Positions 61,346-64,000 of a stretch of 64,000 nucleotides of DNA are shown in pieces. Source of the stretch: Rufibacter tibetensis (lineage in GTDB: Bacteria > Bacteroidota > Bacteroidia > Cytophagales > Hymenobacteraceae); NCBI RefSeq assembly GCF_001310085.1, contig NZ_CP012643.1:4346001-4410000 (forward strand), written 5' to 3'. The position numbers and the translations under genes are program-made. Numbering within the stretch: the first letter of the stretch is position 1; each line of letters begins with the position of its first letter. The notes under the pieces were generated by a model. The model searched no databases and was not told the origin of the DNA. It saw only the letters and a program-made list of their open reading frames with translations.

Positions 61346-62008
61346 ATGTTACAAGATCCGGTTCATATCAATGACGCTTTAAGCAAGTTCTTAATGATAG
61401 GAAGTGGGCTATTTTGGACCATAGCCTATATTCTCATTCTTCGGCGCGGCTACAAAGACAAGTACTACGGCATGCCCATGGCGGCGCTCTGTGCCAATGT
61501 TTCCTGGGAGTTTATCTTTGCTTTTGTGTACCCGCACCCACAGCCCCAGTTGTACATAGATTACCTGTGGCTTGTATTTGACGTGGGCATTCTGGTGCAG
61601 TACCTGGCTTATGGCCGGAGCGAGTTCCCGGAGCACCTTCCCAAAAAACTGTTCTACGTCACTTTCCTTTTTACCCTCGTCTATTGCGCGCTCACCATTA
61701 CGGCCATGGCACAGGAGTTCAATGACTACATTGGCATTTACGCAGCGTTCGCCCAGAACCTGATGATGTCGGTGCTCTTTATCCGGATGCTGCTGAAGCG
61801 GAACAGTTCTAGGGGGCAGTCGGGGTATATAGCCTTGAGCAAGATGGTGGGGACCATCTTTCCATCCATCCTGTTTTACCTGTATTTTCCCAACTCCAAT
61901 TTACTTCTTCTGCTCTTCTGCGGCATCTTCGTGCTGGACGTCGTGTACTTCCTTTTACTATATGCCAAAATGAAAACTGATGGAATCAATCCCTGGAAGC
62001 GGATTTGA
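61346..62008 (+). CDS. Putative transmembrane terpene cyclase (Pyr4/PaxB-like)
   Basis: A 220-residue membrane protein with about seven helices. It carries the pattern of the transmembrane terpene cyclase family known from fungal meroterpenoid clusters (Pyr4, PaxB) and a few bacterial sesquiterpenoid clusters: GLFWTIAYILILRRGYKDKY then YGMPMAALCANVSWEFIFAF with Glu55 after Trp, LWLVFDVGIL with Asp79, and VLDVVYFLLL with Asp198 in the last helix. An early Glu after Trp and a late Asp are the residues reported as essential in Pyr4. The substrate, if it is a cyclase, would be a polyprenyl or epoxy-prenyl chain. No prenyltransferase is adjacent. It is isolated. Confidence 0.7.
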   Translation: MLQDPVHINDALSKFLMIGSGLFWTIAYILILRRGYKDKYYGMPMAALCANVSWEFIFAFVYPHPQPQLYIDYLWLVFDVGILVQYLAYGRSEFPEHLPKKLFYVTFLFTLVYCALTITAMAQEFNDYIGIYAAFAQNLMMSVLFIRMLLKRNSSRGQSGYIALSKMVGTIFPSILFYLYFPNSNLLLLLFCGIFVLDVVYFLLLYAKMKTDGINPWKRI

Positions 62009-62258: not shown

Positions 62259-63155
62259 ATGAAGTATAACCAACTTGGTACCTCCACCTTAACGGTAAGT
62301 GAAATAAGCTTCGGGTGCATGTCTTTACCCAATGACGAGTCTGAAAGCATTTCTCTTCTGCATCAGGCTTTAGGCGGCGGCATCACCTTATTTGATACCG
62401 CAGATTTGTATGAGAAGGGAAAGAACGAGGAGACTGTGGGCAAAGCCTTCAAAGGAAAACGGGACCAGGTGGTGCTGGCTACCAAGGTAGGAAATCAGTG
62501 GCGGCCCGATGGCAGCGGCTGGGACTGGAACCCCACCAAAGCTTATATTCTGGAGTCGGTGGAGAAAAGCCTGAGAAGCCTTCAAACCGACTATATAGAT
62601 CTCTACCAACTGCACGGTGGCACCATTGAAGACCCCATAGACGAAACCATTGAGGCGTTTGAGCTGCTGAAAGAGCAGGGCAAGATACGGGAGTATGGCA
62701 TGTCCTCCATCAGGCCCAACGTGATCAGGCAGTACGTGAAGAAGTCTAACCTGGTAAGTGTCATGATGCAGTACAGTCTTCTGGACCGCCGCCCCGAGGA
62801 ACAAATGCTGGATTTGCTGCACGACCATAAAATAGGCGTTCTGGCCCGGGGAAGCTTGGCGCAGGGCCTTTTATTGGGCAAAACCCCGAAGACGTACCTA
62901 AACCACACCCTAGAAGAAGTAACCCAAACTGCCGAAGCGTTGAAAGCCATTGCCGGTGCAGAGAACGTTCTAAACACGTCGGTGAAATATGTTCTGCACC
63001 ATCCGGCCGTGACTACCGCAGTGCTGGGCATCAGGACGGCCTCTCACCTGGAACAGGCTTTTGCCGTGGTCAAAGCACCTTCGCTATCAGAAGAAACCTT
63101 GCTTTATTTGCATAAACAAATTCCAGCAGAAGTGTATGAGCACCACCGAAATTAA
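62259..63155 (+). CDS. Aldo/keto reductase
   Basis: A 298-residue TIM-barrel oxidoreductase. Catalytic residues are Asp and Tyr in LFDTADLYEKGKNEETVG, Lys in VLATKVGNQW, and His in LYQLHGG. The C-terminal VTTAVLGIRTASHLEQAFAV fits the NADPH site. It belongs to a different subgroup from the gene at 56720. It is followed within about 210 bp by a third aldo/keto reductase on the same strand. Confidence 0.93.
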   Translation: MKYNQLGTSTLTVSEISFGCMSLPNDESESISLLHQALGGGITLFDTADLYEKGKNEETVGKAFKGKRDQVVLATKVGNQWRPDGSGWDWNPTKAYILESVEKSLRSLQTDYIDLYQLHGGTIEDPIDETIEAFELLKEQGKIREYGMSSIRPNVIRQYVKKSNLVSVMMQYSLLDRRPEEQMLDLLHDHKIGVLARGSLAQGLLLGKTPKTYLNHTLEEVTQTAEALKAIAGAENVLNTSVKYVLHHPAVTTAVLGIRTASHLEQAFAVVKAPSLSEETLLYLHKQIPAEVYEHHRN

Positions 63156-63291
63156 ACTTTCTGCAACAATGAAAGAGCAGAATGGAAGGAAAATAGATCT
63201 ACGGACTAGACCTTTGCAGGGTATTTTGTTTTAACCTTGTTTTGAGGAAAATGGCTAGAAACAAAATTAACCCTCTAGTAAGATCGAAAAA

Positions 63292-63333
63292 TTACCTCAA
63301 AAGCTTTTATCCTTTTAGAAGCTTCTGAGGTAA
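63292..63333. promoter_or_regulatory. Inverted repeat in the leader of the last aldo/keto reductase
   Basis: TTACCTCA and AAGCTT pair with AAGCTT and TGAGGTAA around a loop of 12 bases, ending 29 bp before the ATG. There is no T-run after it, so it may be a leader hairpin or operator instead of a terminator. Confidence 0.4.
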
Positions 63334-63362
63334 ACATCCATCACGTAACATATCACACAACT

Positions 63363-64000
63363 ATGAACTATAGAGTATTAGGAAAAACTGGATTTAACGT
63401 CTCTGAGATCTCTTTGGGCACCTGGCAGGTAGGTGGCCGCTGGGGCGAACCCTTCAATGAGCAAACAGCTGAAACCATCATCAATTCGGCCATTGACGCG
63501 GGCGTGAATTTCATTGATACTGCCGACGTCTACAGCGATGGGCTTAGTGAAGCAGCCGTTGCCCGCGTGGTGAAAAGCCGCTCAGAAGAAGTGTTCCTGG
63601 CCACCAAGTGCGGACGCCAGATACAGCCGCATGTGTCGCAAGGGTACACTCCGGAAAGCCTCACCAAATATGTGGAGCAAAGCCTCCAAAACATGAAGCT
63701 TGAAACCCTTGACCTGATTCAGCTGCACTGTCCGCCCACCGAAGTATATACCCGTCCCGAGATTTTTGAGACCTTTGACCGCCTGAAAGAACAAGGTAAA
63801 ATCCGCAATTTAGGTGTGAGCGTTGAATTAGTAGACGAGGCCCTGATGGCCATGAAGTACCCCAACGTGACCACGGTGCAAGTAATCTTCAACATGTTCC
63901 GCCTGAAGCCCAGCGAGCAGCTTTTCTCTGCCGCCAAAGAAAACAACATAGGCTTGATTGTGCGGGTACCTTTAGCCAGCGGATTACTGACCGGCAAAAT
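63363..64000 (+). CDS. Aldo/keto reductase, partial (cut by window end)
   Basis: The first 212 codons of an aldo/keto reductase: MNYRVLGKTGFNVSEISLGT, then FIDTADVYSDGLSEAAVARV (Asp and Tyr), FLATKCGRQ (Lys) and LIQLHCPP (His). The barrel is intact as far as the window reaches. It resembles the group with a C-terminal extension, but that part is outside the window. It lies in tandem after another aldo/keto reductase of different sequence, so recent duplication is unlikely. Confidence 0.93.
   Translation, partial: MNYRVLGKTGFNVSEISLGTWQVGGRWGEPFNEQTAETIINSAIDAGVNFIDTADVYSDGLSEAAVARVVKSRSEEVFLATKCGRQIQPHVSQGYTPESLTKYVEQSLQNMKLETLDLIQLHCPPTEVYTRPEIFETFDRLKEQGKIRNLGVSVELVDEALMAMKYPNVTTVQVIFNMFRLKPSEQLFSAAKENNIGLIVRVPLASGLLTGK

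Follow-up and report, generated by a model that had tools for sequence, protein, structure and literature searches.

A Pyr4-like gene in the Rufibacter tibetensis genome

The window analysed here, a stretch of 64,000 nucleotides, covers C1:4346001-4410000 of the 5.4 Mb genome of Rufibacter tibetensis. It holds an open reading frame on the + strand that starts with an ATG at position 61346, stops at 62008 and encodes a product of 220 residues. This gene and one gene of isoprenoid metabolism are the features of the window considered first.

61346..62008, + strand: Pyr4-like transmembrane terpene cyclase gene, orphan; PF25129, E = 6e-31; 220 aa, 7 TM helices
16754..18760, + strand: ispG (GcpE), MEP isoprenoid pathway; PF04551, E = 1.3e-122

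A Pfam search with the 220-residue protein returned PF25129 (Pyr4-TMTC) as the sole significant match. The score of 108.3 bits is fourfold the cut-off of 27, and residues 11-206 of 220 align with positions 15-222 of the 227 in the profile. The same profile is matched by all 52 aligned homologues (52/52) and by only one protein in the whole R. tibetensis genome, so the gene is single copy. NCBIfam has no model for the protein, sequence and profile searches of the PDB found no solved structure related to it by sequence, and its Pfam search gave no significant match to the PQ-loop/SWEET family profile. Orthologues in other Rufibacter are 69-81% identical to the window protein, and among them changes at third codon positions are about 3-6 times as frequent as those at second positions. 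This coding constraint, the PF25129 match and the orthologues across the genus together indicate that the reading frame is more than a chance one.

A first, sequence-only reading had tentatively placed the protein in the Pyr4-like family. The profile match, the helix layout and the correspondence to residues mutated in a characterised member, DmtA1, all bear this out, and the WE motif (Trp54-Glu55) and Asp198 were found at exactly the positions that reading had given. As judged from its sequence, the window protein is almost certainly a Pyr4-family transmembrane terpene cyclase. It is a new member of an established family and is of an orphan type, without terpenoid genes as neighbours.

Conservation of catalytic residues

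DmtA1 functions in drimentine biosynthesis, and mutation has shown its residues W29, Y33, N56, W59, E60, D214 and Y217 to be important (PMC6173783). The E60A and E60Q variants are dead, D214A is nearly so and D94 is essential; Y33A and Y33F are inactive, the hydroxyl of Y33 being essential, and N56 has been proposed to increase the acidity of the catalytic Glu (PMC6173783). We compared these positions with the window protein in an alignment of 63 homologues from which row L064 was left out. The codons concerned, all on the + strand, are as follows.

61415..61417, + strand: Trp24 codon (DmtA1 W29); kept in 60/64 rows
61427..61429, + strand: Tyr28 codon (DmtA1 Y33); kept in 63/63 homologues
61496..61498, + strand: Asn51 codon (DmtA1 N56); kept in 62/64 rows
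61505..61510, + strand: Trp54-Glu55 codons (DmtA1 W59-E60), putative Bronsted acid, helix 2; Glu in 58/63, Ala in 5/63
61580..61582, + strand: Asp79 codon, extra acid, helix 3; kept in 63/63
61937..61939, + strand: Asp198 codon (DmtA1 D214), helix 7; kept in 63/63
61946..61948, + strand: Tyr201 codon (DmtA1 Y217); Tyr in 54/63, Phe in 8/63

All seven DmtA1 residues tested by mutation have counterparts in the window protein with matched spacing. Trp24, Tyr28, Asn51, Trp54 and Glu55 correspond to their DmtA1 equivalents at a constant offset of 5, and Asp198 and Tyr201 at a constant offset of 16. The 27-residue spacing between Tyr28 and Glu55 is the same in DmtA1 and in every one of the 57 homologues in which it was measured (57/57). 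Of 62 Pyr4-like reading frames, 57 contain the pattern W-x3-Y-x22-N-x2-W-E, which is absent from all 1050 other reading frames of the same loci. In the separate 52-member alignment Tyr28, Pro44, Asp79, Gly169 and Asp198 are invariant, and Trp24, Asn51, Trp54, Glu55, Asn138 and Ser142 nearly so. The sequence-only reading had staked its case on the conservation of Glu55 and Asp198; the first is kept in 58 and the second in all 63 of the 63 homologues.

The invariant Asp79 may be a counterpart of DmtA1 D94, although its spacing from the catalytic Glu differs, 24 residues here versus 34 in DmtA1. An extra acid in DmtA1 and in the fungal MacJ has been tied to the protonation of a plain double bond.

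Five homologues (L062, L066, L069, L070 and L072) have Ala instead of Glu55 and keep the other residues. They form one family of relatives at the phylum level, and their gene neighbours resemble those of green sulfur bacteria. These five are possible natural pseudoenzymes or may use altered acids; with Ala at the place of the catalytic Glu, some relatives may thus not be cyclases.

Predicted fold

The structure of the protein was predicted with AlphaFold2 from the 52-sequence alignment. The model is a seven-helix bundle (mean pLDDT 93.2, pTM 0.87) with helices at residues 10-38, 45-61, 68-93, 101-125, 129-152, 160-180 and 185-211. About seven helices had been expected from the letters alone, with Glu55 in the second and Asp198 in the last; the model has exactly seven, and the two residues are in helices 2 and 7, respectively. 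The loops alternate cleanly in positive charge, which indicates an N-out/C-in topology. In terms of predicted depth only, Glu55, Asp79, Asn138 and Asp198 lie at 0.38-0.50 from the periplasmic helix end; Glu55 (0.38) and Asp198 (0.50) are thus at similar depths in the middle of the membrane, again as depth only.

When the model was compared with the PDB using Foldseek, ranks 1-15 were occupied by cystinosin, SWEET transporters and the KDEL receptor, with no other credible match. The probabilities of these fifteen matches reach 1.00, but their E-values of 1.8e-3 to 0.7 are borderline and their TM scores are 0.46-0.58. A search of a viral structure library likewise gave PQ-loop-type matches only. 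Since the PQ-loop superfamily, whose 7-TM fold is based on two three-helix bundles, tops the ranking, the Pyr4-like family seems to use a bundle of the PQ-loop/SWEET type, as far as a predicted model and borderline E-values can suggest. The PQ-loop, SWEET, cystinosin and KDEL-receptor proteins share with the model its seven helices and N-out, C-in orientation and are its best structural matches, whereas they are transporters and receptors rather than enzymes and have no sequence match to it. No paper clearly linking terpene cyclases to the PQ-loop/SWEET fold emerged from a literature term search.

Genomic locus and distribution

The gene is present in 14 of 16 Rufibacter genomes. In the genus it is usually flanked by a Mut7-C RNase gene on one side and by a conserved reading frame some 150 residues long on the other; the intervening genes vary. 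In the clade of the window protein it is monocistronic at all 19 loci (19/19), with gaps of 38-683 bp, and these loci have no partner gene in common and none in an operon with the cyclase gene. In one species (G003) the flanking genes are present and the cyclase gene is absent, a clean loss which indicates that the gene is dispensable. It is therefore a dispensable gene held at a conserved site in Rufibacter.

Tandem aldo/keto reductase genes lie at window positions 62259-63998, and such genes are found downstream of the cyclase gene in many Rufibacter. An operon with them was considered and rejected, the gaps being mostly 200-250 bp. A partnership was rejected as well, because the reductase genes are kept in G003 without the cyclase gene and because neither neighbour of the cyclase gene is an aldo/keto reductase in L086 and L087.

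Beyond the genus the distribution is patchy: PF25129 exceeds its cut-off in 54 of 391 Cytophagales genomes, in 33 of 205 genomes of the family and in 24 of 396 genomes of the phylum sample. The named relatives carrying the gene are Rufibacter and other Hymenobacteraceae. Homologues on Nostoc plasmids (NZ_CP040275 and NZ_CP040295) are 51-52% identical to the first three quarters of the window protein and have the same residues; they are annotated as hypothetical and are carried by cyanobacterial plasmids. Copies on Streptomyces plasmids are 36-40% identical. Most Cytophagales homologues from outside the family, at about 19-36% identity, fall below the Nostoc plasmid copy (52%). The patchy spread, together with plasmid homologues that are closer than most of those in Cytophagales, suggests lateral transfer of the gene, as far as sequence comparison goes, and argues against the ancestral function that the sequence-only reading had entertained. 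On the plasmid of Nostoc sp. C057 an annotated isopentenyl phosphate kinase gene adjoins the homologue (L150:10001-11821).

Operons with oxidising enzymes and signalling proteins in a related clade

A related clade of 34 members from Cytophagales and other Bacteroidota groups with the window clade, with modest support (83/80). Its proteins belong to the same family and have the same catalytic residues as the window protein, whereas they are only about 20-26% identical to it and their genes are operonic with those of an oxidising enzyme and a signalling protein. Gene context was available for 27 loci, which are related to each other and mostly from one order, so that the counts that follow are not counts of independent events. 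An oxidising enzyme is adjacent or one gene off in 24 of the 27; it is an MpaB/Lcp-type oxygenase in 13 loci (PF09995 shown for two representatives) and an FAD oxidoreductase in 11. The next gene downstream encodes a signalling protein in 22 of the 27, usually overlapping or within 65 bp. The signalling proteins comprise histidine kinases (one cluster of ten and others), 7TMR-DISM receptors with SpoIIE phosphatase domains, nucleotide cyclases and multidomain Ser/Thr kinase-AAA-GAF proteins. Such operons lie at L096:8202-12948, L133:7789-14491, L105:6819-12050, L111:7354-11596, L124:8341-11679, L109:7763-15584 and L126:8847-15725, among others. The arrangement occurs at none of the 19 loci of the window clade.

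These operons around relatives in neighbouring bacteria were unexpected, and a literature search found nothing on the combination of a cyclase, an oxidising enzyme and a sensor. The cyclase is constant and the output domain differs between loci, as expected if the sensors read a product of the cyclase. On gene order, the operons are possible terpenoid-based sensing modules. In a broader form of this idea, which we regard as speculative and probably wrong, the Pyr4-like cyclases of Bacteroidota would produce a lipophilic isoprenoid with a ring that acts as a signal or ligand; in the related clade the adjacent membrane sensor would read it, and in Rufibacter the standalone gene would give a related membrane compound without a linked sensor. 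If true, this would be a terpenoid signalling or membrane-sensing module and not secondary metabolism.

Proposed reaction and isoprenoid supply

From this analysis we predict that the window protein is active as a cyclase, which we hold to be very probable. We further predict, as the probable form of that activity, a proton-initiated cyclisation that acts either on a common isoprenoid of the membrane or on a prenylated product of unlinked genes. Glu55 in helix 2, tuned by Asn51, Trp54, Tyr28 and Asp198, would protonate the end of an isoprenoid chain held inside the helix bundle, and the cation would cyclise and be quenched by deprotonation or by water. As has been proposed for DmtA1 and MacJ, a C=C bond rather than an epoxide would be protonated directly, with the help of Asp79; the reasons are that no epoxidase is linked and that the third acid is invariant. 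With neither a prenyltransferase nor a tailoring gene linked to the cyclase gene, the substrate could be an isoprenoid common in membranes (menaquinone, for example, or some other polyprenyl compound) or else a prenylated metabolite from genes elsewhere in the genome. Direct alkene protonation combined with a generic substrate is a tentative specification, and the odds lean somewhat against it. The absence of terpenoid clustering is atypical among characterised members and speaks against this explanation.

Precursor supply is indicated by ispG, which the sequence-only reading had seen at a distance from the cyclase gene and which indeed lies about 43 kb away, in the window and unlinked. That reading had also described the gene as standing alone, and neither a prenyltransferase nor an epoxidase gene is near it. 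Elsewhere in the genome six UbiA-family genes score over the cut-off and there is one gene of the phytoene-synthase family, not near the cyclase gene, from which it follows that isoprenoid substrates are made. The squalene-epoxidase profile PF08491 had no match in six Rufibacter genomes; epoxidases of an unlike kind (FMO or P450) could be encoded elsewhere in the genome.

We considered that the cyclase may instead belong to a dispersed meroterpenoid pathway and cyclise a compound to which an unlinked UbiA enzyme such as EboC has attached the prenyl chain. The R. tibetensis genome does carry, near C1:5.05 Mb, an ebo-like cluster that includes a UbiA gene, and enzymes of the EboC type farnesylate quinoline acids (PMC9235831). 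Moreover, a Pyr4-like gene lies divergently beside eboABC-like genes in two other Cytophagales (L097:12129-15817 and L103:6835-10525). However, no EboC-like UbiA is among the matches listed for G006, G007 and G009, all of which have the Pyr4-like gene, so EboC is not required across the genus. Dependence on EboC is thus inconsistent across Rufibacter and was rejected, and a dispersed pathway of this kind is unlikely.

Two observations on other loci concern prenyltransferases. EboC is a UbiA prenyltransferase, and the Pyr4-like gene adjoining the eboABC-like genes in L097 and L103 is a candidate cyclase for the ebo product. At L104:9719-13101 the Pyr4-like gene is followed by genes for a thiamine-diphosphate enzyme and for a UbiA-looking membrane protein that has no Pfam match, in an arrangement reminiscent of the zig cluster.

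Alternative functions

The protein could also be a non-catalytic seven-helix relative, that is, a receptor, carrier or lipid-binding protein like the PQ-loop, SWEET and KDEL-receptor proteins. Its nearest solved folds are those of carriers and receptors, namely cystinosin, SWEET and KDELR, the genes of the related clade are coupled to sensor proteins, and the Glu is lost in some relatives. However, the fold matches are weak, with a best E-value of 1.8e-3 and a TM score of 0.58, and both the window protein and its clade retain the full set of DmtA1 catalytic residues, which is unexpected for a carrier or receptor. We regard a non-catalytic role as distinctly unlikely.

The lycopene cyclases CrtYcd and CrtY carry out a proton-initiated cyclisation of an isoprenoid end. 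The possibility that the Pyr4-like protein is a lycopene cyclase, or a carotenoid end-group cyclase, that replaces the usual enzyme would fit this type of reaction, a proton-initiated polyene cyclisation, as well as the lack of CrtYcd in R. tibetensis and ten other Rufibacter that keep the carotenoid cluster (five others have CrtYcd), but it is highly improbable: R. tibetensis has an ordinary CrtY (PF05834, E = 3.3e-57, C1:2547083-2548150), CrtY is found in 11/11 genomes without CrtYcd (E about 1e-55 or better), including G003, which has no Pyr4-like gene, and the role is therefore already filled. Furthermore, CrtYcd and the Pyr4-like gene occur together in four Rufibacter and in several Pontibacter- and Adhaeribacter-type genomes; CrtYcd (PF18916), like CrtY, has no sequence similarity to the Pyr4-like protein, with no Pfam match and an hhalign probability of 0.1% for CrtYcd, and a Foldseek search with the CrtYcd model gave no PQ-loop match. 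Displacement of CrtY or CrtYcd by the Pyr4-like gene was thus rejected, as every Rufibacter tested has one or the other.

As a separate matter, each of the 16 Rufibacter-type genomes has exactly one of the two lycopene cyclases: CrtYcd, within the carotenoid cluster, in 5 of them and CrtY, encoded separately at another place, in 11. L140:7332-12906 and L142:6506-12459 illustrate a clean swap of lycopene cyclases within one genus.

An orphan among the bacterial Pyr4-like cyclases

XiaE/XiaH, DmtA1-3, TylF, GroF and ZigF are established bacterial Pyr4-like cyclases. The sequence-only reading had called the family sparsely described in bacteria, a view that is out of date: a survey from 2026 lists 1107 bacterial candidates, of which 264 were kept for nearby terpenoid genes, 69% of these 264 being actinobacterial (PMC13307353). 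The Rufibacter gene belongs to the orphan kind that this survey filtered out.

The Rufibacter protein resembles DmtA1, XiaE/XiaH, ZigF, TylF and GroF in its profile match, its size (about 220-250 aa among them), its seven TM helices, the catalytic Glu in helix 2 and the Asp in helix 7, and it has the further Trp, Tyr and Asn residues as in DmtA1. It differs from the characterised members in the invariant extra Asp79 in helix 3. The characterised members are encoded in biosynthetic clusters with prenyltransferases, whereas the Rufibacter gene is monocistronic and has no terpenoid gene nearby.

The family is known almost wholly from clusters for secondary metabolites. An orphan that is single copy, occurs in almost the whole genus and retains all the catalytic residues suggests that the family also acts outside these clusters, on a common isoprenoid. 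Pairs of Rufibacter genomes with and without the gene provide a natural comparison. Should the sensor-coupled operons of the related clade prove real, they would suggest signalling by terpenoids.
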